From positions 1 to 56,520 of the forward strand of contig CANDNA010000022.1 of the NCBI GenBank assembly GCA_947385955.1: 56,520 nucleotides of DNA, read 5' to 3'. The DNA is from an uncultured Clostridia bacterium (GTDB taxonomy: Bacteria; Bacillota; Clostridia; Lachnospirales; Lachnospiraceae). Under the pieces are notes generated by a model. That model saw only the letters and a list, made by a program, of their open reading frames with translations. It ran no database searches and was not told the DNA's origin. Below, piece after piece: positions 8,063 through 40,492 of this stretch (position 1 is its first letter; each line of letters starts with the position of its first letter). The translations under genes were made by a program, and so were the position numbers.

Positions 8063-9194
8063 CACTCAGTACCTCATCCAGGTCATACACCGTATTGATT
8101 TTTCCCGACAGCACACTGACAAAGGCAGGGGCTTTGGAATATTGCCGGATTACAGTAGGCCTGGAGTCATCCAGCTCCGAGCTGGTCAGAATCGGCTTCA
8201 TGGAAAACAGGGAACTGTGGTAAGTAAAGCCGTACTCCTCTTTCAGATACTTTCCGGCCAGTGCCGCCATATACGGAAAAGCGCTTTCCGGCCGGGCCGG
8301 GCAGTCATTGCAATTGGCCAGAAAAGCCGGACTGCACCGGCCGCCGCTTCTTTCCTGACAGGAGAACCGGGGCGTAGACTCATAACTGGTGGAATGGGGC
8401 GTGAAGGTAACGGAAGTCAGAGAATGCAGGCCGGTTTTCCCAAAAGGCATAATGGAAAAGAACGGCCCGTCCATCACCGTAAAGCCATATTTTTTCAGGG
8501 TTTCATTCACTTCACAGAGTATAATCTCACACAGCTCATATTTGATGCCGAAGGGTTCATATCCCAGCAGAGCCAGAATCTGATTTACGGAAGCATACGT
8601 GGCATTCAGCAAAAATCCGCTCCGGAAACGTTCCCCGCTCTCCAGTGTCAGTTCATAGGCATCTGCCAGTTTTCCGATTTCCGCCACCCTGACAGCAAAC
8701 CGCAGCTCCACATGGGGCAGCCCTGCTATCTGCTCCAGCAGATACTCCTTTAAAATCATGGCATCATAGGTATATTCTCTTGTCAGAAATGCACCGTCAC
8801 ACATACCCTCCCGGAAAAACTGTCCCGGATGCAGTTCTTCACAGAAAATACCCGCCGCCTTGCAGAAACTGCGAAACTGGGCTCCGTCCGCCCAGGAAAA
8901 CTCCCGGGAAGTTGCATAGACTTTTCGAAATTCCCGATTGATACAAAAAGCATAATCCCGGTTAAACCGCTCAAAATACCCTGCCGATTTGACGGCCGTG
9001 GAAATGGATCTGGGATAATGATACCCCTGATGCACCCTGGCCTGGTTGATGTAGGTGGCACGGCCAAATGCCTCTGTTCCACACTCCAGGACCAGCACGC
9101 TCTGTCCCCGTTTTCCGCAGAACAGGGCTGCATACAGACCATACAGACCGGCCCCGATGATAATTCTGTCATAGCTTTTTGCTGTCTGTGTCAT
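8052..9194 (-). CDS. FAD-dependent oxidoreductase (DAO-like), first gene of glycan operon
   Basis: 380 residues from ATG 9194, chosen because AGGAA precedes it; an upstream GTG at 9248 lacks a site and overlaps the guaB terminator. The FAD-binding Rossmann motif is IIIGAGLYGLYAALF near residue 12, followed by VLVLECG. The central NQARVHQGYHYPRS segment recalls the FAD-contacting loop of D-amino-acid-oxidase-like enzymes. Cysteines cluster near 300-320 (FSCQE, RCSP, NCNDCP). The substrate is unknown; in a glycan operon it could oxidise a sugar or an amino-sugar intermediate. It is coupled to the following GT2 gene by an 11-base overlap. Transcription could come from read-through of the guaB terminator. 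Confidence 0.8.
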   Translation of the reverse strand: MTQTAKSYDRIIIGAGLYGLYAALFCGKRGQSVLVLECGTEAFGRATYINQARVHQGYHYPRSISTAVKSAGYFERFNRDYAFCINREFRKVYATSREFSWADGAQFRSFCKAAGIFCEELHPGQFFREGMCDGAFLTREYTYDAMILKEYLLEQIAGLPHVELRFAVRVAEIGKLADAYELTLESGERFRSGFLLNATYASVNQILALLGYEPFGIKYELCEIILCEVNETLKKYGFTVMDGPFFSIMPFGKTGLHSLTSVTFTPHSTSYESTPRFSCQERSGGRCSPAFLANCNDCPARPESAFPYMAALAGKYLKEEYGFTYHSSLFSMKPILTSSELDDSRPTVIRQYSKAPAFVSVLSGKINTVYDLDEVLSDGD

Positions 9195-9225
9195 TCGGTT
9201 TCCTGTTCCTTTCCTTATACGCGGC

Positions 9226-9267
9226 AAAAGCCTCCGCAGATGGTTCACCGGTCTGCTGAGGCCCTTT
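9226..9267 (-). terminator. guaB terminator
   Basis: On the minus strand GCCTCAGCAGA (9252-9262) pairs with TCTGCGGAGGC (9230-9240) with one mismatch, followed by TTTTGCC. It lies 19 bases after the guaB stop and before the glycan operon, so some read-through into that operon is possible. Confidence 0.7.
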
Positions 9268-9280
9268 TCCTGTATTTGTT

Positions 9281-10738
<1,458 letters not shown>

Positions 10739-26309: not shown

Positions 26310-27377
26310 ATGGCAATCAAGAGTTTAATTATCAATCCGGGGTCCACTTCCACCAAAATCGGTGTGTTTGAGGACGAAACCCTGTTATTTGAAGAAACCC
26401 TCCGTCACTCCACAGAAGAGATTGCACGCTATGCATCCATCGTGGATCAGAAGGATTTCCGCAAAGATATTATAGTCAGCCTGTTAAAAGAAAAGAACTT
26501 TGACATCCAGTCCCTGCAGGTGGTTGTGGGACGGGGCGGTATGTTAAAGCCGATTTCCGGCGGCACTTACCCGGTTACCGATGCACTCCTGGCAGATCTG
26601 AAAGCCGGTGTGCAGGGGCAGCACGCTTCCAATCTGGGAGGCATCCTTGCCCGTGAAATCGCAGATTCCATCGGAGTACCTTCCTATATCGTAGATCCGG
26701 TAGTGGTAGATGAACTGATGCCCGAGGCACGTTATTCCGGCGTACCGGAACTGCCCAGAGTCAGCATTTTCCATGCGCTGAACCAAAAGGCTGTGGCAAA
26801 ACGCTATGCCAAAGAAACAGGCAAAGCCTATGATTCACTGAATCTGATTGTGGTTCATATGGGCGGCGGCGTTTCCGTAGGCGCCCATAAGTGCGGCCGG
26901 GTCATTGATGTCTTTAACGCTCTGGACGGCGACGGCGCATTCTCCCCGGAACGGGCAGGCGGTGTACCCAGCGGCTCCCTGATCAAGATGTGCTTCTCCG
27001 GAGATTACACACAGGCAGAGGTATACAAAAAAGTAGTCGGGAACGGCGGCTTCAATGCTTATCTGGGAACCAATGATATGCGCGATGTGGATAAGATGGC
27101 TGACGAAGGGGACGAAAAGGCCGTACTGATCCGTGACGCCTTTATTCTCCAGGTGGCAAAGGACATGGGTTCCATGGCCTGCGTACTGGAAGGTAAAGTG
27201 GATCAGATCATTATTACCGGCGGTATCGCCTATGACAAATATGTTGTGGATGCCCTGAAGCAGAAAGCCGGCTGGATTGCTCCCACGACCGTATATCCCG
27301 GCGAAGATGAACTGCTGGCGCTGGCACAGGGTGCGCTTCGTGTGATGAACGGCGAAGAAAAGGCAATGACCTACTGA
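26310..27377 (+). CDS. buk: Butyrate kinase
   Basis: 355 residues. It makes ATP and butyrate from butyryl-phosphate, the last step of the kinase route of butyrate formation. The ASKHA-fold motifs are [17 protein letters not shown] (phosphate 1, near 4), [16 protein letters not shown] near 72, [20 protein letters not shown] near 178 and [12 protein letters not shown] near 300. [16 protein letters not shown] near 207 is typical of butyrate kinases, as opposed to acetate kinases. The bidirectional terminator 27413-27447 follows. With ptb it shows that this organism can form butyrate by substrate-level phosphorylation. Confidence 0.97.
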
Positions 27378-27412
27378 TACGGACAGATTCAGAACTGTAA
27401 CCATAAAATTCC

Positions 27413-27447
27413 ACCGGGCAGTTATCCATGAAAGATAACTGCCCGGT
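27413..27447. terminator. Bidirectional terminator after buk
   Basis: ACCGGGCAGTTATC (27413-27426) pairs perfectly with GATAACTGCCCGGT (27434-27447), followed by TTATTTTATT. The convergent ABC ATPase gene ends 36 bases beyond and probably uses it too. Confidence 0.9.
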
Positions 27448-27482
27448 TTATTTTATTCCAAATTCGTGAAGTCACCCGCCTG

Positions 27483-28154
27483 TCATCTGCCCGTCACCAG
27501 ACGTCCGTCTTTCATCTGCAAAACATGATCCGCCGCTTTGGCCACTTCCGGATTGTGGGTAATCACGATCACCAGGTAGCCTTCCTGATGGGCCAGCTCC
27601 TTTAAGATTTTCACAATATGCGCTTCATTTTCCGAATCCAGATTGCCCGTCGGTTCATCTGCCAGCAATATTTTCCCCTCGGCAGCCAGTGCTCTGGCGA
27701 TGGCCACTCTCTGCTGCTCTCCTCCGCTCATCATTTTGGGGAACTGCTTTCTGATCTTATCCGGCAGCCCCACACGGGTCAGCATCCTGCAGGCACGTTC
27801 TGCCGCCTCTCCTGACCTGATCCCCTTCATTTCCATCGGAAACATAACATTTTCCTGAGCCGTCAGCAACGGGAACAGATGAAAGGACTGATACACCACC
27901 GATGCAATATCCCGCCGGTATCTGTCTCTGGACAGCGTTTTCAGACTCTTTCCCTCTACCAGAATATCCCCGCTGACAGGCAGATCCAGCCCTGCCATCA
28001 AAGACAGCAGGGTACTCTTCCCGCTGCCGGATTCTCCTACAACGGCATACATCCGGGCCTGTTCAAAAGAACAGGACACATGCTTCACCGCTTCTATTGT
28101 CTGGTACTTTGTCTGATAAGAATAACTCACATCTTCCAGTCTCAGTAGTTCCAT
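27483..28154 (-). CDS. ABC transporter ATPase of the RiPP locus (MacB/LolD type)
   Basis: 223 residues. Walker A is GESGSGKST near 40, the Q-loop VVYQSFHLFP is near 87, the signature MSGGEQQRVAIARAL is near 142, and Walker B ILLADEPTGNLD is followed by a H-loop ITHNPEVAK. This is the ATPase type that works with FtsX-like permeases to export peptides or remove them from the membrane. It is the last gene of the cluster, 15 bases after the 409-residue permease. It could also energise the larger permease at 32266-34161, as no second ATPase is present. Confidence 0.95.
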   Translation of the reverse strand: MELLRLEDVSYSYQTKYQTIEAVKHVSCSFEQARMYAVVGESGSGKSTLLSLMAGLDLPVSGDILVEGKSLKTLSRDRYRRDIASVVYQSFHLFPLLTAQENVMFPMEMKGIRSGEAAERACRMLTRVGLPDKIRKQFPKMMSGGEQQRVAIARALAAEGKILLADEPTGNLDSENEAHIVKILKELAHQEGYLVIVITHNPEVAKAADHVLQMKDGRLVTGR

Positions 28155-28169
28155 AATACCTCCCGCCCC

Positions 28170-29399
28170 TCAATCCTGTCTGCACAGCGCCGCCATTACA
28201 CTTCGTCTGCCCATATGCCAGATGGAAACCACCGTGCCTGACAGATAGCAGGACAGAAATATGACTGCCGCCCATCCTGCTGCCTGCGGCTGCGTTTCCA
28301 TACCGGCCAGTGCAAGGATGCTTCCCAGGATACAGGCACAGAGCTGGATCATAGCCGTTTCCAGAAACATCACACCAAAGCACTGCCCTTTTCCCAGCCC
28401 CAATGAACGCATCACCGCATACTCTCCCCGCCTGCTCTGGATCAGCAGATAGGCTGTAATATAGCCGATCACCGCCACAATGGCAAGCACCAGCGGCAGT
28501 CCCGCCTGCATCAGTTCCAGACTTTCCTGCAGACGCTCGGAAACCTGGATAAACATGCTGTCCCTGACTGTAAGCGCATTGCCGTCATACCGGTACTCTG
28601 CCGTAGCCGCCACAGGCAATAATCCTGCCTCTTTCATATCCTGTTTGAATGCATCCAGCTGAAAGGGATCTTTCACCGCAAAAGATGCCGAATCCGCCGT
28701 AAATGGCAGTCCCGCTTCCCGAAATTCCTTCCGCACCGTCTGAAAAGGAAGCAGTACAGAAGGAACAGGCATACTCCCCAGGTACTCCGCCATATCCATA
28801 CAGCCTGTGATCTGATATTCCTGAATCGTCAGTGGTTCAAAGAAAATTTCATGATAGTCCCCATACCGATAATAAAATATGGTCAGCGTCACCACATCCC
28901 CTACCTGCAGTCCGTTGTCCTCAAGTACCATCTGATCTACCACGCATTCCCTTCTGTCAGAACCAAAAAAATCCCGGTCTGCCCCATCCATCCAGGCAAT
29001 TTCCTCTTCTTTCAGCCCCCTGATACCCTGGACAGAGTTGGTTCCTGCTGCAAACTGATTCAGTTTCCCCTCATAATCATCCATAGTAAATGTACCAAAG
29101 CCCAGATAAAGCTGCACAGTAAATACGGCATCTTTTACATAAGGACAATTCTGAATCCTTTCCACTGTTTTCTCCGGAATGGCCAGTCCCGCGTCCAGAC
29201 TCCCGTTCAGATTGCTGACCGTGGCAGTGACAGGCACAGCCCCGGGCAGATCCCGGAGCTGCCGCTGCATACTGTCCATATATCCTGTGTAAATATTCAA
29301 AAGGAGCACCACTGCCAGCCCCACCAGCATACTCAATATGGCTTTATACCGCTGGCGCACCGCATTTCTGCTCCCTGTATGCACATAAAAATACAGCAT
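28170..29399 (-). CDS. FtsX-type ABC transporter permease of the RiPP locus
   Basis: 409 residues from ATG 29399 (GAGGGA upstream). One transmembrane helix near 23-43, a large outside domain (about 45-275), then three helices near 290-312, 338-360 and 370-392. The FtsX-core pattern RRGEYAVMRSLGLGKGQCFGVMFLETAMIQL is at about 315-345. It forms the membrane part of a peptide exporter or immunity pump with the downstream ATPase. A hairpin attenuator (29422-29461) separates it from the precursor gene, which would keep its level below that of the peptide. Confidence 0.9.
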   Translation of the reverse strand: MLYFYVHTGSRNAVRQRYKAILSMLVGLAVVLLLNIYTGYMDSMQRQLRDLPGAVPVTATVSNLNGSLDAGLAIPEKTVERIQNCPYVKDAVFTVQLYLGFGTFTMDDYEGKLNQFAAGTNSVQGIRGLKEEEIAWMDGADRDFFGSDRRECVVDQMVLEDNGLQVGDVVTLTIFYYRYGDYHEIFFEPLTIQEYQITGCMDMAEYLGSMPVPSVLLPFQTVRKEFREAGLPFTADSASFAVKDPFQLDAFKQDMKEAGLLPVAATAEYRYDGNALTVRDSMFIQVSERLQESLELMQAGLPLVLAIVAVIGYITAYLLIQSRRGEYAVMRSLGLGKGQCFGVMFLETAMIQLCACILGSILALAGMETQPQAAGWAAVIFLSCYLSGTVVSIWHMGRRSVMAALCRQD

Positions 29400-29421
29400 A
29401 ATATCCCTCTGAATCCTGCAC

Positions 29422-29461
29422 AACGAAAAAAGGATGGCAGGCCACACCACCCTCTTTCGTT
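29422..29461 (-). terminator. Attenuator between precursor peptide and export genes
   Basis: On the minus strand the core GGGTGG pairs with CCATCC (with one G-U pair), extended by AACGAAA pairing with TTTTTTCGTT, and a T-run follows the core. It lies 11 bases after the peptide stop. Partial termination here would give more precursor than transporter, as in many RiPP operons. Confidence 0.6.
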
Positions 29462-29472
29462 TGCCGGTTTGA

Positions 29473-29598
29473 TCAATGCAATTTGTAAATATTCATATAA
29501 TCATTGGCCGGAACACTTCCGCAGCCTGCACATCCCTTGCAATATACCTGTGCCTTACTGTTTGTGCCTTTGTTTTTCTTGACCAGCTTTTTCTTCAT
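29473..29598 (-). CDS. Cys-containing RiPP precursor peptide (Clo7bot-like)
   Basis: 41 residues from ATG 29598, which has a near-perfect AAGGAGG; an in-frame extension to 29676 lacks a site and reaches into the next gene. The leader is MKKKLVKKNKGTNSKAQ. The core begins VYCKGCAGCGSVPAN, with cysteines C20, C23 and C26 (CxxCxxC), and ends DYMNIYKLH. The Lys-rich leader and Cys-rich core match the Clo7bot-type peptides (TIGR04065, from memory) that accompany CcpM maturases; here only three Cys occur, fewer than usual. It lies directly downstream of the maturase genes. The modified product is unknown; thioether or other Cys links are likely for this enzyme class. Confidence 0.8.
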   Translation of the reverse strand: MKKKLVKKNKGTNSKAQVYCKGCAGCGSVPANDYMNIYKLH

Positions 29599-29679
29599 AC
29601 CAGCACCTCCTTTAAATCTGTATTTTGCTCTCATACATTGCTTCGGCCGCAGCAGATATATAAGTTTGGCAAGCAAATT

Positions 29680-30753
29680 TTATTCCTGTTCCGACAGGCA
29701 GTTGATAATATCCTCTGTCAGACTGTCACAGCTTTTCCCATCGGTGACATCCAGCAGATGCGGATCGTTTTCTTCTTTTATTTTCCTTCTGATAAAGTCC
29801 CGGTCCAGTGTGAGAAATTCCCGCTCTTTCTCAGATACCAGATCTATCGTATCCTGTGTTATGGCTGCCAGATGATAAGCGCCGGGAACGATCTGGTATT
29901 TGTTTTTGATGTCCATGCCGATTTCCTGCACCCTTTTATGCAGATCGGGCTGCCAGGGCAGGCACAGTACCAGATAATCCACGGGCAGCGCTTCTAATAT
30001 CTCATACTGCAGCATACCGTATCCATTGTGATTGTATCGGTTAAAGGGCAACGCCCCGCCGGGTATCCCCGCGATAATCAGTTCCGGTTCTTCCCGTTTC
30101 TCCAGCGCAGCAATCCGGTGATTGTACCGGATGATCTTTTCTGTTTCTCCGATTCCGGGCTGTAACATAAAATCCGGAAACGAATACATACCCAGCATCT
30201 CCGTACCCATGCCGGAGCTTACGGACAACACCCGATAGCCCCGCTTCTGAAATGCCTGCCGCAGCGCAAGCTGCACTTCCAGTTTTTCCGTATTTTCTTC
30301 CAGTCCCATCACAGCCACCACCGGTGTATGGATGTCCATGCAATAGGTAACCGCCCTGCCAGAGGGATCCGGTATCTCTGTATCCACCGGCAGGATGCGC
30401 AAAGTCTCCGGAATCATCCGGACAGCGTTTTCATACGCTTCCGGATCTCTTTTCCTGGTATAGATGATCTGTTTCCCTCCGGCGATTGCCTGCCGCAAAC
30501 GCCTTTCCAGAAGCGCAGGCGGCAGCTTCAAAGTCCCGTCCTCCACAAACCAGACCCCGTCACAACGTTTCAATACGGTTTCATACTCTGTTTCTACTAT
30601 GTACTTTTTGGCTCCGGATACCACTGTATCATTTCCCAGCCCCCATCCCTTTGGGGAAACCAGTCCTGCCAGTTTCCAGTCCGTCAGCATATCCTGATGC
30701 CGTACCACAGCTTCCACGCCTCTGTGATACGGATATATCATAAGCTGTTCCAT
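29680..30753 (-). CDS. Peptide maturation system protein, TIGR04066-like
   Basis: 357 residues. No classical catalytic motif is obvious. The N-terminus (MEQLMIYPYHRGVEAVVRH) and segments such as ETVLKRCDGVWFVEDG, TPVVAVMGLEENTEK and ELIIAGIPGGALPFNRYNH suggest a Rossmann-like nucleotide-binding fold; TEKLEVQLALRQAF recalls a P-loop-neighbour helix. I recognise the overall pattern as the companion of CcpM in clostridial Cys-rich peptide loci (TIGR04066, from memory). Its role there is not established; chaperone, leader-binding or peptide modification are possible. It starts 22 bases after the maturase stop behind GGAGG. Confidence 0.8.
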   Translation of the reverse strand: MEQLMIYPYHRGVEAVVRHQDMLTDWKLAGLVSPKGWGLGNDTVVSGAKKYIVETEYETVLKRCDGVWFVEDGTLKLPPALLERRLRQAIAGGKQIIYTRKRDPEAYENAVRMIPETLRILPVDTEIPDPSGRAVTYCMDIHTPVVAVMGLEENTEKLEVQLALRQAFQKRGYRVLSVSSGMGTEMLGMYSFPDFMLQPGIGETEKIIRYNHRIAALEKREEPELIIAGIPGGALPFNRYNHNGYGMLQYEILEALPVDYLVLCLPWQPDLHKRVQEIGMDIKNKYQIVPGAYHLAAITQDTIDLVSEKEREFLTLDRDFIRRKIKEENDPHLLDVTDGKSCDSLTEDIINCLSEQE

Positions 30754-30775
30754 AGCGCCTCCGTCTGTTTCTTAT

Positions 30776-32218
30776 CTATCCAAAATCATACCCCAGATCC
30801 CGAAGGGTACAATAATCCAGCAAATCATTTTCCACCGACTCTCTCATAAACGCACAGGAGCGTTGAATATACGGCGCAGATATGGTTTCCCCGTCGTCCG
30901 CTCTTGCGATGCAGATATTACAATATCTGTATGCCCAGCAGTCTCTGCACATTTCCCGGGTATACCGTTCCAGATTTAAAAGATTTCCGGCTTTTTCCAG
31001 ATCAATGCCGCTTTCCAGATCCCCCAGTCTGGACGCTTTTGAAGATTCGCTTACCTGCTCACAGGGATAGAAAAATCCGTCTGCACTCAAAAAGAGTTTT
31101 CTCACGCCCGGCAGGCAGGGGCCTCCCCTGTGCCCTCTTTCTGACAGGCATTCCTGCCGTCCCACCCGGCTCATTTCCGCAATCCGTTTGATCTGCCCTG
31201 CATAGTTCTGCAGCATCCTGAACCGGTGATCCTCCTCACAGCCTTCCAGCATGGCAAGATAATGACCTGCGATCCCATATTCATATTCCGCCGGAAAGAC
31301 TTCCCCATATACAGATCTGGTCTTACTGTACATATCGCTGATGATGTTGCAGAGAAGCCGGTTTTCCCGGAACAGTTCTTCACCGGTCATATACTGTTCC
31401 ACTTCGGCAAAGCTGTTCTGCGGATCCAGCACCGTATTGAACCGAATATTGCTGCGGTAAAACTCCGGATACTGTTCCTGTATCTTTCTGATATTCTGTA
31501 TCACAGTCTGATGGGAACCATTCCCGCTGCCGGCAAACTTTCTGTGTCTGTCATGGATTGCTTCCGGGCCGTCCAGACTGATCAGTATGCTGAAATGATT
31601 TTCCACCAGAAAAGGGAGTTTTTCCCCGGTCAGCAGCGTTCCATTGGTGGTAAAATGAAAATCGACCTGCCTTCCTTCCGCTTCCCGCTTCATATCATTC
31701 ACACAGTCCTGTATCAGATCAAATGCAAGTAACGGCTCTCCCCCGTAAAAGCTGATCCCGATCCGCCCTGAATCTCTGGAATGGGCAAGCAGATATTCCA
31801 TTCCCTTTTTTGCCATTTCAAAGGACATCCTCCGGTCTGAATGGGTCCGGTTATGATAGGCGCCGGAGTAAACACAATATTCACAGCGCAGGTTACAGGA
31901 CTGGGTCACCTGTAACACCAGATGAGACATTTTATATTTCAGATAATATTCCAGCAGTTCCGTCAGGGGATGCTCCACGATACGGGTCCGGTTTTCTTTC
32001 AGATACCCCTCTTCCCTGAGCCTGTGCAGAGATTCCCTTCCGCTCTCATCCAGCGGCTTTCCCGCTCTGAAATACTCATACAGCTCATCAGAAATACGTA
32101 AAACCTCATTGGTATTCACATCATATAAGTACTTGTGCCGGGAGGTTTCCATCAAATGGATAAACGGCCCTTCCTCTCCTGTCTGTTTTCGATACGCTTT
32201 TTCCTCATTGTTTCCCAT
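30776..32218 (-). CDS. ccpM: Radical SAM/SPASM Cys-rich peptide maturase (CcpM-like)
   Basis: 480 residues from ATG 32218 (GGAG 12 bases upstream; ATG 32230 is possible). The radical SAM motif CNLRCEYC (CxxxCxxC, near 108-115) binds the SAM-cleaving 4Fe-4S cluster, and YGGEPLLAF follows as the SAM-binding GGE motif. The N-terminal FIHLMETSRHKYLYDVNTNE resembles a leader-recognition region. The C-terminal SPASM domain has many cysteines (CLPG, YPCEQ, CRDCWAYRYCNICIA, SCAFM) for auxiliary clusters. This matches the TIGR04068/CcpM maturases of clostridial Cys-rich peptides. It would install the crosslinks in the peptide at 29473-29598. Confidence 0.9.
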   Translation of the reverse strand: MGNNEEKAYRKQTGEEGPFIHLMETSRHKYLYDVNTNEVLRISDELYEYFRAGKPLDESGRESLHRLREEGYLKENRTRIVEHPLTELLEYYLKYKMSHLVLQVTQSCNLRCEYCVYSGAYHNRTHSDRRMSFEMAKKGMEYLLAHSRDSGRIGISFYGGEPLLAFDLIQDCVNDMKREAEGRQVDFHFTTNGTLLTGEKLPFLVENHFSILISLDGPEAIHDRHRKFAGSGNGSHQTVIQNIRKIQEQYPEFYRSNIRFNTVLDPQNSFAEVEQYMTGEELFRENRLLCNIISDMYSKTRSVYGEVFPAEYEYGIAGHYLAMLEGCEEDHRFRMLQNYAGQIKRIAEMSRVGRQECLSERGHRGGPCLPGVRKLFLSADGFFYPCEQVSESSKASRLGDLESGIDLEKAGNLLNLERYTREMCRDCWAYRYCNICIARADDGETISAPYIQRSCAFMRESVENDLLDYCTLRDLGYDFG

Positions 32219-32233
32219 ACCATATACCATCTC

Positions 32234-32254
32234 CGGCCTGCCGCGGGCAGGCCG
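32234..32254 (-). other. GC-rich hairpin before the maturase gene
   Basis: CGGCCTGCC-GCG-GGCAGGCCG is a perfect 9-bp stem with a 3-base loop, 15 bases before the maturase start and just after the 631-residue permease stop. It has no T-run. It may stabilise or separate the two mRNA segments, or affect initiation. Confidence 0.4.
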
Positions 32255-32265
32255 CCCTGTATTCC

Positions 32266-34161
32266 TTATTCATCACTGCCAAGCAATTCCAGCGGTTCGT
32301 ATCCCATGCTCTTTCCCATCTCCAGCAGGGCTGCTGCCCCTGCCAGCAGGAACATGCCGCCCCCGCACACCAGAGAGACACAGGCGCTTTCCCCGCAGGA
32401 CAATGCCCCTTCTATTTCCGGTTCTTCTTTTTCCGTATTTCCAAGACGGTCATCGCTGTAAGTTCGGTCATATCTGGCAATCTGCATCATCCGTTCCGAT
32501 GCCCTGTCTGTTATGAAGATACTTCCGATGCTTCCTGCCAGGCTTCCCAGCAGGGCGATCAGTAAGATGCCTGACAAAAGGGACACCGTGCATTCCCACT
32601 TTGTCATACCAAGAGAACGTTCTATGGCAATCCGCTTTTTCTGTCTGGCAATCAGCATATGGCAGAAATACAAAAGAAGAAACAATGCCGCCATCACTCC
32701 GGCTGTCAACAGCCCCACCGCTGTCCGTTTCATAGTCTCCAGCCCGCTTTCCAGTCTGGAATATCCTTTGTCATAAAATACAATTTCCACATTGGAAATT
32801 CCTTTTTGATTCCAGGCTTCCATAAAATCTCCGATGCTCCCGTTGGGTATCTGGAACGAAGTCGTATATCCCTTCATCGGCCCCCAGCACATAATATTCT
32901 CTTCATCACCGGCTCCGATGGAGCCTGCAGGCACTATAATTTCATTGTCATGCAGAGTATATCCCGGATCCTGAAATGCGCCCGGCATCAGATCATATAT
33001 CCCGCAGATCGTGTAATCACATTCCCAGAATGTGGGATACGCTTTTCCGTCCGCCCGCAAAAGCCCGATCTCCATACTGATATTATCATGCCATTCCATC
33101 AGTTCATTTTCCATGCCGATACTGGCCGAATCCGCATAATTGGCCGAACGCAGCGGCAAATGTATCGTATCCCCCACTGTCAGGCCATTCCTGACGGCAA
33201 ACCGGCGGGAAATCAGGCAGACCGGTGTTCCCTGGTCATATTCCTCCTGTGTAAATTCCCTTCCTTCTATGATGCAGGCATCTCCCTGATAAAACGGCAT
33301 CATCAGATACAGATCTCCGGTAGGCGTAACCGGCACAGACCAGCAGGACATTTCCCTGGCTTTGGCAAGCTCCATCCAGCGCTTTCCGTCCTCTGACTGC
33401 CAGAAGCCTTCCGTAATCTCCTGTATCCATATATTTTCCCCACCGCTTACAAGCGGCGTGCCGTCTTTTTGGGTCTGTGTTGTAAAAAGCCCTCCGGCAG
33501 GCAGATGCTCATAACGGGTTTCTTCTATCGTCCAGCCATGCCACAGCCACTGCTCCAGGCTCATCACATAGGTTTTATCCGCATAGAGCATTTCCGGATT
33601 CTTATGGAAATGATCACAGTAATAAAACTGTGGCGCGTTAAAACTGTAATAGCTGAACAAAACCTTTTTTAACTCCATCTTAACCGGACCGGAAGGGATA
33701 CAGTCCTCCAGCGGCGAAGCTTCTAAAATCACTGCATTGGACCATCCGGCATTGTCATCCAGTATCTGAAGGTCAGGCACATATGCCGCATAGTAGGGAC
33801 GGCGCTCCGGCCCGCTGAGATACTCCACCCCCTCCAGTTCCAGATCTGAAAGCGTCCGCCAGCTCTCATACACCTGTCTGTTTTCATATACATAGGTTTC
33901 CTTTTCCGCATCCCAGACTGCCTTTTTTTCCACGCCGTCCGGCTTTTGCTCCACAGTGCCTATCGTCCGGAACAGCCCTTCCATCTGCTCTGTATTCTTC
34001 ATACTGATAAACAGCAGATTCCCTCCCACAGAAACCAGCAGAACACAGGCTGAAAAAAGAATCAGAAACAAAAATGTCCTGACCTTTGTCCGCCATAGCT
34101 GTCTCAGACTGTTTCGCACTGTCACATTTCTCCACCCCGGTTTCTCCCTTTTTTTCATCAT
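32266..34161 (-). CDS. Large FtsX-type ABC permease, first gene of the RiPP operon
   Basis: 631 residues. One helix near 28-52, a long extracellular domain (about 55-480) without cysteine clusters, then helices near 487-507, 530-552 and 595-617. The end (RQKKRIAIERSLGMTKWECTVSLLSGILLIALLGSL) is the FtsX core. The start is uncertain: ATG 34161 has no clear SD, whereas GTG 34119 (MRNSLRQLWRTKVRT) has GGAG ten bases upstream. It presumably pairs with the ATPase at 27483-28154. Long-domain permeases of this type often protect the producer against its own peptide. The operon promoter region is shared with the divergent LytTR/kinase pair. Confidence 0.85.
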   Translation of the reverse strand: MMKKREKPGWRNVTVRNSLRQLWRTKVRTFLFLILFSACVLLVSVGGNLLFISMKNTEQMEGLFRTIGTVEQKPDGVEKKAVWDAEKETYVYENRQVYESWRTLSDLELEGVEYLSGPERRPYYAAYVPDLQILDDNAGWSNAVILEASPLEDCIPSGPVKMELKKVLFSYYSFNAPQFYYCDHFHKNPEMLYADKTYVMSLEQWLWHGWTIEETRYEHLPAGGLFTTQTQKDGTPLVSGGENIWIQEITEGFWQSEDGKRWMELAKAREMSCWSVPVTPTGDLYLMMPFYQGDACIIEGREFTQEEYDQGTPVCLISRRFAVRNGLTVGDTIHLPLRSANYADSASIGMENELMEWHDNISMEIGLLRADGKAYPTFWECDYTICGIYDLMPGAFQDPGYTLHDNEIIVPAGSIGAGDEENIMCWGPMKGYTTSFQIPNGSIGDFMEAWNQKGISNVEIVFYDKGYSRLESGLETMKRTAVGLLTAGVMAALFLLLYFCHMLIARQKKRIAIERSLGMTKWECTVSLLSGILLIALLGSLAGSIGSIFITDRASERMMQIARYDRTYSDDRLGNTEKEEPEIEGALSCGESACVSLVCGGGMFLLAGAAALLEMGKSMGYEPLELLGSDE

Positions 34162-34402
34162 ACCAAAGGATTTTTGGTTTTTCCATAACCCCTGTACGAA
34201 ATGACAATTTTCCGTTTGTATGGTCAGGGCAGAGAAAATAAACTGTCATTTTAAAACAGGGGCAGCAGAAAAATGTCAGGTTTCGGTACGGAAACTGTCA
34301 CAAAAATCTCTTCTTTTTTGACATTGTTCTGCTATAATACATTACGTGGACAAAGCAATGCGAACATCCTGTCATTATCAATGAAAAGGAGGGATTGCCG
34401 TT
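34162..34402. promoter_or_regulatory. Divergent control region with repeated TGACAGTTT motifs
   Basis: Four related motifs occur: TGACAATTTTCCG (34202, plus), ATGACAGTTTAT (complement of 34238-34249), GTGACAGTTTCCG (complement of 34289-34301) and TGACATTG (34319, plus). ACAGTTTAT (complement of 34238-34246) fits the LytTR-type half-site consensus [TA][AC][CA]GTTN[AG][TG]. The plus promoter has an extended -10, TGCTATAAT (34330-34338). The LytTR regulator encoded at 34403 may act here on both its own gene and the RiPP operon. Confidence 0.5.
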
Positions 34403-35110
34403 ATGCGTATTGTAATCTGTGACGATGATACGGCAATTACAATGCAGTTAACCGGGTACCTGCAGGAATATTTTCAGGAGCATGGTTTAAAGATGCCCCA
34501 AATCCAGACCTTTCACAGCGGAGAAGAACTGCTCTGCGATTCCGACAGCCAGGACATTGTCTTTCTGGATGTGAAAATGCAGGGAGTCAGCGGAATCCGC
34601 ACCGGCGAACTGGTCAAACGCAGAAACCCGGACAGCATTATTTTTATCATTACTTCCTATCTGGAATATCTGGATGATGCCATGCGTTTCCATGTGTTCC
34701 GTTACCTGACCAAGCCGCTGGACAGGCAGCGCCTGTTCCGCAATCTGAAAGACGCCCTGGCTCTGTATACTTCCTCCTATGCCAGGATTCCCATTGAAAC
34801 CAGGCAGGGTGTGTTTTCTGTCCCTGCCTCTGATATCGTCTGTGTACAGACCCTGGACCGGAAGGTCTGCATCCATACGGTTTCGACAGCCTATGAGTCT
34901 GTTTATAACATACAGCGTTGTGAACAGCTTCTGCATCAAAGCTGTTTCTTCCGTACCCACAGAAGCTACATTGTCAACCTGGAATATGTGACAGATTTCA
35001 ATCACTTTCTGATTCACCTCAGTCTGCCGCCCTTTGAAGCCTACCTCGCACGCAGGAAATACAGTGCATTTCATGACGCGTACCTGTTATTTCTTGAGAG
35101 CAGAACCTGA
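34403..35110 (+). CDS. LytTR-family response regulator (AgrA/ComE type)
   Basis: 235 residues. The receiver domain (1-120) has the acidic pocket DDD at 7-9, the phosphoacceptor D56 in IVFLDVKMQG and the conserved Lys in RYLTKPLD. The LytTR DNA-binding domain (about 133-232) shows IPIETRQGVFSVPASDI, FFRTHRSYIVNLEYV and a C-terminal LARRKYSAFHDAYL. It starts at ATG 34403 behind AAGGAGG and is divergent from the RiPP operon. Members of this group respond to secreted peptides through a GHKL kinase, encoded 18 bases downstream. It probably switches the peptide locus on. Confidence 0.95.
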   Translation: MRIVICDDDTAITMQLTGYLQEYFQEHGLKMPQIQTFHSGEELLCDSDSQDIVFLDVKMQGVSGIRTGELVKRRNPDSIIFIITSYLEYLDDAMRFHVFRYLTKPLDRQRLFRNLKDALALYTSSYARIPIETRQGVFSVPASDIVCVQTLDRKVCIHTVSTAYESVYNIQRCEQLLHQSCFFRTHRSYIVNLEYVTDFNHFLIHLSLPPFEAYLARRKYSAFHDAYLLFLESRT

Positions 35111-35128
35111 ACAACGGAGAAACGACAA

Positions 35129-36253
35129 ATGGCAGCCAGTATATTTTATTGTATAATTTATCTGACAGAAGCAAGTATTTTCAGGTATTACTGCAAAAAA
35201 ATGTTTGTTTCCAGACTTTCTGCATGGGCAGAAAATGCAGTATTTGCCCTGGCTTACGGATTGCTCTTCTTTTTTTCTTTTTTACAATGGATCCGGCCGG
35301 ATACTCTGGCCCTTTTATCCGTTAATTTCCTGCTGTTATTCTGTCTCTATGACATCCGGCCTGCCCGCGCCGCTTTTCATGCCGCCATTGCCACAATGAT
35401 CATGGGGCTTTGCGAGCTGTCCGTCATGGGGGTCTTTTTCCGACTGGTACGGGTAAATTTTTGCTTTTCCTTACGGAAATTTACCGTCCTGGGGGCGGAC
35501 AGTCATATACTGCTGATACTGTCCGGCAATCTGGTGATCTGGCTTCTTTATCTTCATATGCAGAATAAAAACGAAGTCTTTGTGCAGATGCAGCACAGGC
35601 TGCAGAAAGAAAAAGTCTGTGCCAGCTATTACCGGATGCTGTTGGAGCAAAAGGAGAATCAGGGCATCCTGCTCCATGACATCAAAGGGCATCTCCAGTC
35701 CATTGCCATTCTCAACGAACACAAAGAGCCGGATAAAGTCACTGCCTACATTGAAAGACTGCTGCAGGGCTTTGCACTGCAGGATTCTGTACAAATCTGC
35801 GGCAATGAGCTTTTAAATGCCATCCTATGCGGCTGCAGGCAGCGATGCCGGGAACATGGGATCACCTTCCAGACCGATGTCCGCAGCGGCGCCGCGGATT
35901 TTCTGGAAGAGGACGAACTGACTTCCCTGTTCTGCAATCTGCTGGACAATGCCTTTGCCGCCGCCTGCGGACAGACAAATGCTTACATCCGTTTAAATAT
36001 AACCCTCAGACCGGGTACAGCCCTTGCCGTTATCACCCTGATCAACTCCTGTCAGGCAGACCCTTTTACTCCTCAGGGCCGCCTCATTTCTCATAAACCA
36101 GAAAGCCACAGGCATGGCTTCGGGCTGAAAAGCATCCGCCGGATCGTTAAGAAATACCGGGGCCATATGCAGATCTATTACTGTGACAGGGATCACAGCT
36201 TTCATACTGTCATCACCATGCAGGCAGAGATTGAAAAATTCCCCGCAGAATGA
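35129..36253 (+). CDS. AgrC-like sensor histidine kinase (GHKL family)
   Basis: 374 residues. The N-terminal sensor has about five hydrophobic helices (roughly 5-20, 38-55, 62-78, 84-108 and 125-143) and short loops, with no large outside domain, as in peptide-sensing AgrC/ComD. The dimerisation helix has H183 in LLHDIKGHLQSI. The catalytic domain shows the N-box NLLDNAFAAA near 278 and the G-box HGFGLKSIRRIV near 340. It phosphorylates the LytTR regulator encoded just upstream. The signal is probably the product of the adjacent RiPP locus or a degraded form of it; this is inference from gene order. Confidence 0.93.
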   Translation: MAASIFYCIIYLTEASIFRYYCKKMFVSRLSAWAENAVFALAYGLLFFFSFLQWIRPDTLALLSVNFLLLFCLYDIRPARAAFHAAIATMIMGLCELSVMGVFFRLVRVNFCFSLRKFTVLGADSHILLILSGNLVIWLLYLHMQNKNEVFVQMQHRLQKEKVCASYYRMLLEQKENQGILLHDIKGHLQSIAILNEHKEPDKVTAYIERLLQGFALQDSVQICGNELLNAILCGCRQRCREHGITFQTDVRSGAADFLEEDELTSLFCNLLDNAFAAACGQTNAYIRLNITLRPGTALAVITLINSCQADPFTPQGRLISHKPESHRHGFGLKSIRRIVKKYRGHMQIYYCDRDHSFHTVITMQAEIEKFPAE

Positions 36254-36259
36254 TAAAAT
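36231..36259 (+). promoter_or_regulatory. Sigma-A promoter of the binding protein/chemoreceptor pair
   Basis: TTGAAA (36231-36236), a 17-base spacer and TAAAAT (36254-36259). It overlaps the last codons of the kinase gene (stop 36251-36253), so the following pair can be expressed on its own. Confidence 0.6.
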
Positions 36260-36340
36260 AACACAGACATATTTCTACATAAGTCCGCCGGGAATATGGC
36301 AGCAGCCGATTCCCACAGACACAGATATCGGGGGTTTTTT

Positions 36341-37624
36341 ATGAAAGCAAAAACAGGAATCGGAATTGCCGCCGCCATACTGTCGGCGGTGTTGGCAGGC
36401 TGTGCAGGTCCGGAAAATGATCTCAGGGAGACAGGGAGCACAGCACAAAGCAGCGGAGCGTTGTCCCTGGAAGAACAACTGGCGGCAGATTCAGGAGAAG
36501 TGAAACTGCTGGTCTGGGGCGCCGAAGAAGATCAGGCACTGCTGGAACAGATCATTGACGGATTTTCAAAAGAGTATCAAGGCCGGGCCGAATTTCAGAT
36601 TACCCTGGCAGTGCAGAGTGAATCCGGATGTAAGGATACCCTGATGGGGGATCTGGAAGCAGGTGCAGATGTATTTGCCTTTGCCGACGACCAGTTAAAC
36701 ACTCTGGTGGCAGCCGGAGCGCTGGAACCCATCCCACATCCCGACCGGATCCGCTCTGCCAGCCTGGAAGGCGCTGTGGAAGCCGCCTCTGTGGACGGTA
36801 CATTGTATGCCTATCCCCTGACCGCAGACAATGGCTATTTTCTATATTATAACAGACAATACATAACCGAGTCGGACGCCTCATCTCTGGACAGCATCCT
36901 GGAGGCAGCAGCCGCTCATCACAAAAAATTTGCGATGGACTGGTCCTCAGGCTGGTATGTCTATTCCTTTTTCGGCAATACCGGGCTGGAAGTGGGGCTG
37001 AATGAAGATGGCATTACCAATTACTGTACCTGGAATCAGACCGGAAGCGCTGCCAGCGGCACAGAGGTGGCGCAGGCCATGCTGGAAATAGCGGCAAGTC
37101 CCGGCTTTTTAAACACAGACGACGGAGGGTTTCTGCGCGGTGTCCAAAACGGCTCTGTCATTGCCGGTGTCAGCGGCGTCTGGAACGCCGTTGCAGTGGA
37201 AGAAGCCTGGGGAAATCAGTATGCGGCAGCCAAACTGCCCACCTATACCTGTGGGAACAAACAGATTCAGATGGCTTCTTTTTCAGGCTATAAACTGATC
37301 GGCGTCAACGCTTATTCAGAGCATCCTGCCTGGTCCGCCCTTCTTGCAGAATGGATCAGCAATGAATCCAACCAGCAGCTTCGCTTTACGCTGCGGGGCC
37401 AGGGGCCTTCCAACATCAAAGCCTCTCAGTCTGCAGCCGTACAGGATTCCCCGGCTATTGCCGCCCTCCTTGCCCAGTCGGAATATTCCTGTCTGCAGAG
37501 GATTGGCGGTAATTACTGGGATCCGGTGTCGGAATTTGCAGGCACGCTGGCCGACGGCAACCCGGACCAGATCGGGCTGCAGGAGCTGCTTGACACAATG
37601 ACAGAAGGAATTACCGCCCCGTAA
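36341..37624 (+). CDS. Orphan extracellular solute-binding lipoprotein
   Basis: 427 residues from ATG 36341; an earlier in-frame start at 36296 would put charged residues before the signal peptide. The lipoprotein signal is MKAKTGIGIAAAILSAVLAGC, with the lipidated Cys at 21. The mature part resembles the maltose-type (cluster D) binding proteins: VKLLVWGAEEDQALLEQI, GADVFAFADDQLNTLVAAGAL, ADNGYFLYYNR and a C-terminal LGANPYSE-like region. No permease or ATPase gene is nearby; instead a chemoreceptor gene follows after 25 bases. That suggests it feeds a sugar signal to the receptor rather than, or as well as, transport. The ligand is unknown. Confidence 0.9.
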   Translation: MKAKTGIGIAAAILSAVLAGCAGPENDLRETGSTAQSSGALSLEEQLAADSGEVKLLVWGAEEDQALLEQIIDGFSKEYQGRAEFQITLAVQSESGCKDTLMGDLEAGADVFAFADDQLNTLVAAGALEPIPHPDRIRSASLEGAVEAASVDGTLYAYPLTADNGYFLYYNRQYITESDASSLDSILEAAAAHHKKFAMDWSSGWYVYSFFGNTGLEVGLNEDGITNYCTWNQTGSAASGTEVAQAMLEIAASPGFLNTDDGGFLRGVQNGSVIAGVSGVWNAVAVEEAWGNQYAAAKLPTYTCGNKQIQMASFSGYKLIGVNAYSEHPAWSALLAEWISNESNQQLRFTLRGQGPSNIKASQSAAVQDSPAIAALLAQSEYSCLQRIGGNYWDPVSEFAGTLADGNPDQIGLQELLDTMTEGITAP

Positions 37625-39246: not shown

Positions 39247-39302
39247 TGTACAGAAAGCGCCCCATACACCCTTTTCAGGATGTATGGGGCGCTTTCTGTA
39301 CA
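39247..39302. terminator. 22-bp perfect palindrome shared by convergent genes
   Basis: TGTACAGAAAGCGCCCCATACA (39247-39268) pairs perfectly with its complement at 39281-39302 around a 12-base loop. The minus-strand LuxR gene stops inside the loop (39275-39277), so the right arm encodes its last eight residues. A T-run (CTTTTT) follows only on the minus strand. It probably terminates both genes. Confidence 0.75.
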
Positions 39303-39898
39303 GCCTCTTTCAGTGCTTCCCGTTTCTGTATCCCGGTTTTTTCAAAAATATGGGAAATATGCTTTTTGACCGTAGTCTCCGAAATCACCAGTTCCTGGGC
39401 AATCTCCCGATTGGAGCGGCCGTTTATGACCAGCAGTGCAATTTCTGCTTCCCGGTTTGTCAGCCCGGCAGCCATGCATTCCTGCATCGTAATCTCCGCC
39501 TCCGGCTTTTCGGCTGTTTTTTCGGATGTTTCCTGCCCCTCCTCCTGATCCGCTCTTTCCAGGATCATTCTGATACAGAAAGCATACAGCATAGGACGGA
39601 AGCACATTGCCAGATCCGGCAAAAGCCCTTCATATTCTCCGGCATCGGACAGTCTGATAAATACCAGCAAAAACACCTGAATCAGTCCTGCATCAATGGA
39701 TTTACTGCCAAAAACGGAGAAAAATTCTTCTTTTTCCATTCCCCTCCGGCAAAAAGGCAGTGTCAGCAAAAAGGTGCCGGCAAGCAGCGATAAAAAGCTC
39801 CTTACATCCAAAAGCTGTCTGATTTCAAATGCTGTCACAAAAGAAAGCAACAGCAAATACAGAAGCAGATACACGATTGTCTGCCCTCTTCTCTTCAT
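39275..39898 (-). CDS. Membrane-bound LuxR-type HTH regulator
   Basis: 207 residues. The N-terminal half has about four hydrophobic helices (roughly 8-28, 32-50, 70-84 and 95-112), then an acidic linker (about 115-140), then a LuxR/NarL HTH (about 143-200): LTNREAEIALLVINGRSNREIAQELVISETTVKKHISHIFEKTG. A DNA-binding domain tethered directly to the membrane is unusual in this family; such proteins may read a membrane signal and be released or act in place. It is co-directional with the MotA-like gene 14 bases upstream. The last codons (QKAPHTS) lie in the terminator hairpin. The target genes are unknown. Confidence 0.85.
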   Translation of the reverse strand: MKRRGQTIVYLLLYLLLLSFVTAFEIRQLLDVRSFLSLLAGTFLLTLPFCRRGMEKEEFFSVFGSKSIDAGLIQVFLLVFIRLSDAGEYEGLLPDLAMCFRPMLYAFCIRMILERADQEEGQETSEKTAEKPEAEITMQECMAAGLTNREAEIALLVINGRSNREIAQELVISETTVKKHISHIFEKTGIQKREALKEAVQKAPHTS

Positions 39899-39911
39899 AT
39901 ACCGCCGCTCC

Positions 39912-40379
39912 TCATTCCTCTGTCACTTCTCTCAGCCGTACCCGCAGTTTTGCCTCCAGAGGCAGTAGCACCAGCGCTATGGCCAGCGCATAGAGCGGTG
40001 TCAGCAGCGCCACCGCCAGCATAGGTCCCAACAGCAGCGGATCATCCATATTAGCCAGAATCAGGACAACGGAAAAAAGGAAACTGAATGCGCCGCCTGC
40101 CAGAGATACCCTTCTCGCCAGGCACACCGCCTCAATGGCGCGGGAAATCTCCCCGGCAGACACCCCGCCTTCCCTTTCCCGTCTGCTTCTGACTGCCAGA
40201 CGCAGCGCATTGTTAAAGTCTTTCAGAAGCCCTGCACTGAACAGCAGAGTCACATCAAATAATAAGATCGTCAGTGCACTGGGGAAATCCAGAAAATAAA
40301 TCAGCCCGCTCCCGCCTGCGGTGGTAAACAGCAGAAACCAGGAAACCAGTACCACTCCCAACACAGAAAAAAAATACAT
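39912..40379 (-). CDS. Distant MotA/TolQ/ExbB-like membrane protein
   Basis: 155 residues from ATG 40379, with GGAGG seven bases upstream; the ATG at 40385 is too close. Four hydrophobic segments (about 4-22, 26-46, 92-110 and 114-138) and a C-terminal LLGPMLAVALLTPLYALAIA-type pair of helices ending LPLEAKLR resemble the last two helices of MotA. The large cytoplasmic torque loop of MotA is short here and no MotB-like partner is seen. It could be a stator-like or channel protein that works with the tethered LuxR protein encoded next. The match is weak and by eye. Confidence 0.6.
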   Translation of the reverse strand: MYFFSVLGVVLVSWFLLFTTAGGSGLIYFLDFPSALTILLFDVTLLFSAGLLKDFNNALRLAVRSRREREGGVSAGEISRAIEAVCLARRVSLAGGAFSFLFSVVLILANMDDPLLLGPMLAVALLTPLYALAIALVLLPLEAKLRVRLREVTEE

Positions 40380-40492
40380 TTGCATACCTCCATTTCATTG
40401 TATCGCTGCCCTGTTGTTACTTCACCTCCATTATAGTAACAGACACCCTGCTTCGCCATACTCCTTCGGAAGTATTTCCGGTAGTATCTTTT

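Follow-up and report, generated by a model that had tools for sequence, protein, structure and literature searches.

Gene content of the locus

We analysed a window of 56,520 nucleotides from an uncultured, probably gut-type clostridial bacterium of the Lachnospiraceae (contig CANDNA010000022.1 of assembly GCA_947385955.1, here C22, in a host genome of 3.16 Mb), and focused on a putative cluster for a ribosomally synthesized and post-translationally modified peptide (RiPP) that is built around a 41-residue precursor and a CcpM-type radical SAM/SPASM maturase. The gene map recovered the layout that an earlier note on this DNA had described, with all features at the coordinates assigned to them beforehand, including the short precursor with cysteines C20, C23, and C26. 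Six genes lie on the minus strand in the transcriptional order FtsX1, CcpM, TIGR04066, precursor, FtsX2, and ATPase, separated by 35, 22, 81, 22, and 15 bp; as all gaps fall between 15 and 81 bp, the spacing is like that of a single operon. On the plus strand, genes for a LytTR response regulator and then a GHKL histidine kinase diverge from this set, and a 241-bp intergenic region is common to both. The features are as follows (aa, amino acids; family or evidence in brackets).

27483..28154, minus strand: LolD/MacB-like ABC ATPase, 223 aa (PF00005)
28170..29450, minus strand: FtsX/MacB-type permease 2 (FtsX2), 426 aa, GTG start (PF12704 and PF02687)
29473..29598, minus strand: candidate RiPP precursor, 41 aa, leader MKKKLVKKNKGTNSKAQVY, cysteines 20/23/26 in CKGCAGC (leader pattern, ribosome-binding site)
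29680..30753, minus strand: TIGR04066 peptide-maturation protein, 357 aa (TIGR04066)
30776..32230, minus strand: CcpM radical SAM/SPASM maturase, 484 aa (TIGR04068)
32266..34161, minus strand: FtsX/MacB-type permease 1 (FtsX1), 631 aa (PF02687)
34202..34300, no strand assigned: candidate LytTR operator, AAAHTGTCA at 34202 (minus), 34240 (plus), 34270 (plus), and 34292 (plus) (repeat searches)
34333..34338, plus strand: TATAAT ahead of the LytTR gene, with no matching -35 element (CTTCTT instead) (read from the sequence)
34403..35110, plus strand: LytTR response regulator (PF00072 and PF04397)
35129..36253, plus strand: GHKL histidine kinase, 374 aa, shortened sensor (PF14501)
27369..36460, no strand assigned: block without counterpart at the equivalent place in genus mate G403 (local alignments)

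To the left of the block lie the genes for phosphate butyryltransferase and butyrate kinase (ptb-buk), and to the right those for a solute-binding protein and a chemotaxis receptor. Promoter and terminator scans were uninformative (15 and 13 sites, compared with 11.0 and 10.3 in shuffles), and the RNA fold of the gap between the TIGR04066 and precursor genes gave no structure signal (z 0.02).

The maturase and its TIGR04066 partner

The maturase matches TIGR04068 with 548.3 bits over profile positions 1–462 of 462, above the cut-off of 500, which confirms the CcpM-type assignment of the earlier note. It carries the radical SAM motif CNLRCEYC at residues 112–119 and C-terminal cysteines at 372, 390, 428, 431, 437, 440, and 459; the last spacing of the SPASM motif, which we take to be CX3C, is CX2C here. 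In the CcpM tree its nearest relative is that of locus L038 (support 96/92; 43% identity). Matches above the TIGR04068 cut-off occur in 13 of 397 genomes of the family sample, 9 of 392 of the order sample, and 3 of 398 of the phylum sample, which overlap and each include the window's own genome. The neighbouring protein likewise belongs where it had been placed, with 250.2 bits over positions 1–361 of TIGR04066 (cut-off 200), and retains the 4 invariant and 4 near-invariant positions of that family; among the ten genomes of the genus, TIGR04066 is present in this one only. The fusion of CcpM and TIGR04066 in a single frame at L049:8506-10686 (726 aa) and L107:3096-5603 (835 aa) suggests joint action of the two proteins.

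Members of the TIGR04066 family share a short IYPY motif near the N terminus and, in the centre, a block resembling a worn P-loop. DUF1611_C (PF07755) matched 3 of 26 members at E ≤ 0.1, the best being that of L038 (E 6.4e-5, 22.9 bits, gathering threshold 25), and DapB_N matched 2 of 26 (best E 0.022). From these relatives TIGR04066 may tentatively be read as a DUF1611-like P-loop protein; against this, the window's own protein matches neither DUF1611_C nor DapB_N, and the signal is weakened by unrelated families that match single members at E 0.0003 and 0.0005. At E ≤ 1e-40, DUF1611 was found in 0 of 56 genomes of the order. In a comparison with hhalign, the central block aligned over 113 columns with S8 peptidases from CcpM clusters, in the C-terminal part of the latter (probability 95.9; E 5.5e-9 for one comparison), the S8 set including a divergent protein from L053; the peptidases at L035:7261-8691, L047:13679-15133, and L053:10757-12427 seem to carry such a TIGR04066-resembling C-terminal region. 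AlphaFold run without an alignment gave no usable fold for TIGR04066 (mean pLDDT, the predicted local distance difference test, of 34), and the best PDB profile match was a designed protein at E 0.34.

A scan of genome contigs with CcpM returned a single weak locus with 28% identity. The plasmid pHG52 of Enterococcus raffinosus carries at positions 8971–10281 a CcpM-like gene (39% identity) that is directly followed by an IS6 transposase gene; beside the CcpM-like gene, an incomplete gene table names no TIGR04066 protein and no ABC transporter.

The precursor peptide

The open frame of the precursor spans 67 codons when counted from an upstream start, and the 41-aa peptide itself begins at an ATG preceded at five bases by the ribosome-binding site AAAGGAGGTG. 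Small peptides near other CcpM genes carry a similar leader of the MKKxLxKK type followed by a cysteine-rich core. We listed 35 small open reading frames (ORFs) near CcpM genes, of which four were judged non-precursors (L035 17736, L040 7184, L044 2211, and L098 1129) and 31 were kept. Twenty-five peptides entered a profile test, namely the window's and the 24 precursors of other loci from which the leader profile was built; also left out of the profile were the near-copies L042 8103 and L101, two of the three L107 peptides, and both from L053, whose CcpM is divergent and below the cut-off. The precursor frame scored 8.3 bits against this profile; 3 of 1000 shuffles of the 41-aa peptide scored higher, and among 643 ORFs of the window the frame ranked second, behind one other. 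Together with the ribosome-binding site, this marks the precursor as more than a chance ORF.

The short three-cysteine core had been singled out as worth studying. The peptide is the shortest of the 31 kept, but a set of three cysteines is also present in the peptide of L040 and both peptides of L053.

Comparison with other CcpM clusters

The comparison covered 35 CcpM rows from the fetched regions, the window included, with features counted within ~9.5 kb; one gene split over L043 and L044 was left out, as was a weak additional hit in L102 (157 bits). Partner families were identified on L035 and then found elsewhere by profiles grown from it: its acyl-carrier-related protein (ACP) matches TIGR04069 with 80.8 bits (cut-off 70) and its peptidase the Pfam S8 family with 50 bits (cut-off 21.8), and its MsbA-like ABC protein scores under NCBI's MsbA cut-off. 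TIGR04066 has a gene of its own in 30 of the 35 rows and forms part of a CcpM fusion in another two. ACP occurs in 26 rows, the MsbA-type exporter in 23, the S8 peptidase in 21, and FtsX in seven, one of these (L053) by a weak match. Absences on short contigs or at contig ends, as in L099, L100, L105, and L107 among others, carry little weight. All three of ACP, S8, and MsbA are missing from the rows of the window, L039, and L105; the genome of L039 carries another and more complete CcpM locus (L040) on the contig of L039, and L105 is a 6-kb contig. Within positions 20001–45000 of the window, none of TIGR04069, the S8 peptidase, or the MsbA-type exporter was found. The best TIGR04069 match in the host genome reaches 47 bits (cut-off 70) on another contig, C13, where at L121:3623-11652 the ACP-like gene is flanked by genes for a choloylglycine-hydrolase-family protein and an MsbA-like transporter. 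MBOAT and GDSL acyl enzymes are encoded upstream, and the ACP-like gene is possibly part of a separate acyl-modifying pathway.

CcpM genes of other genomes lie close to quorum-sensing genes more often than chance predicts. An AgrB gene occurs within 10 kb of CcpM in 6 of 25 genomes compared with 0.40 expected (P 1.1e-6), a limit that was chosen after the loci had been seen; leaving out G583, as its locus nearly duplicates that of G321, gives 5 of 24 (P 1.2e-5). The clusters near AgrB-GHKL-LytTR systems are L034/L035, L037, L041, L042, L051, and L101. An AgrD-like small ORF, read by eye, overlaps the end of AgrB in L042, and at G268:C6:53777-57800 some 3 kb separate an AgrB match from a CcpM fragment with a 277-aa frame that scores 319 bits. 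No report of a CcpM-Agr link came up in the literature searched, including passages of PMC9062424 and PMC10301443; in Clostridium acetobutylicum, passages of PMC10301443 describe control of a RiPP-synthetase-like gene by Agr. CLI_3235 precursors are described as common in Clostridia in the part of PMC7343975 consulted, and the part consulted of a review of thioether RiPPs (PMC8326336) does not name CcpM.

The FtsX permeases and ATPase

Hydropathy predicts four transmembrane (TM) segments in each of the permeases; FtsX1 has a large extracytoplasmic domain. The best NCBIfam match of the ATPase is LolD, under its cut-off. Relatives of FtsX1 with 47, 46, and 39% identity occur in two further genus genomes, neither of which has a TIGR04066 match. 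At L066 and L067, the genes for FtsX2, FtsX1, and the ATPase are contiguous in stretches with no CcpM or TIGR04066 match, which makes the transporter look like one that is native to the genus and split here by maturation genes. The neighbour of the set is a RelA/SpoT-domain gene in one of these loci and a sigma-70-like factor gene in the other; at L067:4625-6789, in genus mate G401, the set comes after genes for a radical SAM protein and the sigma-70-like factor, so that a related transporter stands in other surroundings there. A viral scan with FtsX1 gave no match.

MacB/LolCDE-type FtsX transporters are not generally exporters from the cytoplasm to the outside, and the S8 peptidase and MsbA-type exporter of the family are missing here. 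The proposal that the cluster encodes its own export was thus not borne out, and FtsX-mediated export as a demonstrated fact was rejected. A single conserved CcpM-FtsX lineage was also rejected, as mapping the FtsX label onto the CcpM tree takes five changes, compared with a mean of 6.5 in shuffles, and 43 of 500 shuffles needed no more than that. Given this scatter, FtsX was probably recruited more than once by CcpM clusters.

The LytTR/kinase pair and promoter repeats

The kinase has 374 aa and four TM segments by hydropathy, compared with 432–441 aa and 6–7 TM segments in six compared kinases (one was counted at 10, with overlapping calls); it is 58–67 aa shorter, and the main gap lies in the sensor. 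The closest relative of the pair found among the ten genus genomes and these kinases is at L120 in genus mate G381 (LytTR 264 bits, kinase 235 bits), where the LytTR and kinase alone of 13 seed proteins from CcpM clusters and the window were matched in 19 kb. Identity to the window's LytTR is 52% for L120 and 20–25% for seven regulators near other CcpM genes, and the histidine box is HDIKGHLQSI in the window and HDIKKHLQSI in L120, compared with HE[YF]KN in five AgrB-linked kinases near other CcpM genes. Contig C22 gave no match to AgrB; the host genome has five, on contigs C1, C14, and C17. A plain Agr system was rejected, with no AgrB in the window and a kinase of another subtype. The label "AgrAC-like" therefore holds only loosely: it fits the pairing of a GHKL-class kinase with a LytTR regulator and fails for the missing AgrB, the shortened sensor, the HDIKxHLQSI box, and a closest relative, among the kinases compared, that lies away from CcpM-cluster genes. 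The condition that the note had set for refutation, a lack of joint conservation of precursor and kinase in relatives, holds in part: this type was not seen with CcpM elsewhere; what was seen is the different, AgrB-linked type.

The 241-bp intergenic region contains four copies of AAA[ACT]TGTCA, with no further copy in the window. A spaced pair of the repeat occurs at two places in the whole genome, both in the shared promoter and with one copy in common, and a reversed control pattern occurs at none. The complement TGACAGTTT contains ACAGTT, which we take to be the core of AgrA-type LytTR sites and which two of the four copies have. The TATAAT at 34333 is absent from the promoter-scan list and, lacking a -35 element, resembles an activator-dependent promoter.

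Origin of the block

Homology to G403 breaks off at 27368 and is picked up again at 36461, an interval of 9092 bp here and 271 bp in G403; these ends are the points where local alignments stop rather than exact joints. In G403, the gene for the solute-binding protein comes immediately after that for butyrate kinase. Among seven genus regions with butyrate kinase, the block genes follow it in none (0/7; L071 covers ~0.7 kb on that side), and the six regions other than G403 show other genes or a contig end there. In G381, genes matching window positions 39275–40385 lie near butyrate kinase, and the solute-binding protein and receptor genes match elsewhere. Since one ~9-kb block is absent in G403, the RiPP operon and the LytTR/kinase pair come or go together at this site. 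The linkage of pair and operon that had been claimed is upheld by this single block and by the unique repeat pair in their shared promoter.

Interpretation and alternatives

We read the locus, with a probability of roughly 0.55, as a pared-down CcpM-type cysteine-rich RiPP cluster of three modules in one ~9-kb block beside ptb-buk. Its gene content, the family membership of CcpM and TIGR04066, the absence of the block in the genus mate, and the uniqueness of the repeats are established; the functions that we infer from them would be as follows. The LytTR regulator and kinase would act on the repeats at 34202–34300 to switch on both their own promoter and the divergent operon. Judging from the family, CcpM with TIGR04066 would bind the leader MKKKLVKK... 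and form cross-links of thioether or related type that start at C20, C23, and C26, and leader removal and release would fall to enzymes encoded elsewhere. The FtsX1/FtsX2/ATPase transporter would protect the producing cell by extracting the peptide from the membrane and may also relay its load to the kinase. By analogy, the product would most likely be a narrow-spectrum bacteriocin, because a Paenibacillus cluster with CcpM, TIGR04066, and TIGR04069 gives one according to the part of PMC10731318 consulted. We regard as a long shot the more specific proposal that a kinase with a partly lost ligand-sensing membrane domain reads the load on a protective FtsX transporter whose genes are wrapped round the maturation genes, with TIGR04066 as a DUF1611-like P-loop partner acting on the peptide with CcpM.

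Several observations weigh against the three-module reading. The block contains no S8 peptidase, MsbA-type exporter, or other protease or cytoplasmic exporter. TIGR04065 gives no match to the 41-aa precursor at E ≤ 1 (cut-off 26 bits; the L035 precursor reaches 36.2 bits), and the 8.3-bit leader-profile score is modest; the "Clo7bot-like" label thus stands on leader pattern and profile score and fails on TIGR04065, and the peptide would work like a CLI_3235/Clo7bot precursor without being filed as a TIGR04065 member. The repeat pattern was derived from the region in which it was then searched, and three copies of the 9-mer alone are not rare (27 of 200 shuffles of the region), so genome-wide uniqueness is the stronger argument. 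None of these repeats is present in the L120 promoter, and the candidate operator is therefore not tied to this regulator subtype. Butyrate kinase adjoins the solute-binding protein gene in one genus mate only (G403, 68% complete), and kinase relatives were sought in the ten genus genomes and compared with AgrB-linked kinases rather than across the family.

One may postulate instead that the peptide is a signal rather than a weapon, the mature RiPP leaving the cell and switching on the operon when the kinase senses it. The kinase and regulator are missing in G403 along with the operon, with which they have the uniquely repeated promoter region in common, and related CcpM clusters lie near AgrB in the excess of genomes given above (6 of 25 compared with 0.40). 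We nevertheless find this unlikely, given that the sensor is where the kinase is mainly shortened, that the expected ligand in AgrB-linked clusters is an AgrD peptide rather than a RiPP, and that one product of the CcpM family is antimicrobial, according to passages of PMC10731318. A second scenario takes the transporter and LytTR/kinase pair as an independent peptide-resistance module of the genus, into which precursor, CcpM, and TIGR04066 were inserted without functional integration. The contiguous transporter genes of L066 and L067 and the L120 pair, all apart from CcpM and TIGR04066, are in line with it; however, FtsX1 kin and a close kinase relative occur together in none of the nine other genus genomes, and the three maturation-related genes sit inside an operon with gaps of 15–81 bp, making it rather improbable. 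The cluster could finally be decaying, with ACP, S8 peptidase, exporter, and AgrB lost and no mature product made. ACP, S8, and MsbA are indeed all missing from the window, the genome's best TIGR04069 match stays at 47 bits under the cut-off of 70, and the precursor is the shortest of those kept. Yet all ORFs are open, the maturase has its radical SAM and C-terminal cysteines, TIGR04066 retains the 4 invariant and 4 near-invariant positions of its family, and a strong ribosome-binding site precedes the precursor, so we consider decay very unlikely.

CcpM systems are named in genome annotation yet little described in the literature. The locus comes near the smallest set seen here (precursor, CcpM, and TIGR04066) and is for that reason a good test bed for the role of TIGR04066 and the need for an ACP-related protein, and the above-chance nearness of CcpM and AgrB offers a rule, open to testing, on the conditions under which such bacteria produce their peptides.

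Comparison with known systems

The locus can be set beside the CcpM/CLI_3235 (Clo7bot) system of TIGR04065, TIGR04066, TIGR04068, and TIGR04069, with which it shares CcpM and an adjacent TIGR04066 gene, an MKKxLxKK leader, and a cysteine core. It differs in lacking TIGR04069, the S8 peptidase, and the MsbA-type exporter, in a precursor that TIGR04065 does not recognise, and in maturation genes flanked by FtsX and ATPase genes. The sister CcpM locus L038 (in G118) has an FtsX permease and a similar leader as well, but keeps an S8 peptidase, ACP, and a 309-aa ABC ORF matching the MsbA profile, has a 57-aa precursor, and shows no LytTR/kinase pair within its 15 kb.

Like the Agr system (AgrB, AgrD, AgrC, and AgrA), the locus combines a GHKL kinase (PF14501) with a LytTR regulator (PF04397 and PF00072), but it has no AgrB match, another histidine box, and a shorter sensor. 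BceAB/MacB-type (type VII) ABC transporters pair an FtsX permease that has a large outer domain with a separate ATPase and a neighbouring two-component system, a resemblance in how the parts would work only. The window has two unequal FtsX subunits, and its GHKL kinase differs from Bce-type kinases, which have two TM segments.

Another close known system is the SacP23 cluster of Paenibacillus polymyxa #23. As described in passages of PMC10731318, that cluster has TIGR04069, a subtilase, a 6-TM ABC transporter protein, and a precursor of 61 aa, compared with 41 aa in the window. Both have a precursor, a TIGR04068 maturase, and a TIGR04066 protein, and the SacP23 cluster yields an antimicrobial when moved to B. 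subtilis (passages of PMC10731318).

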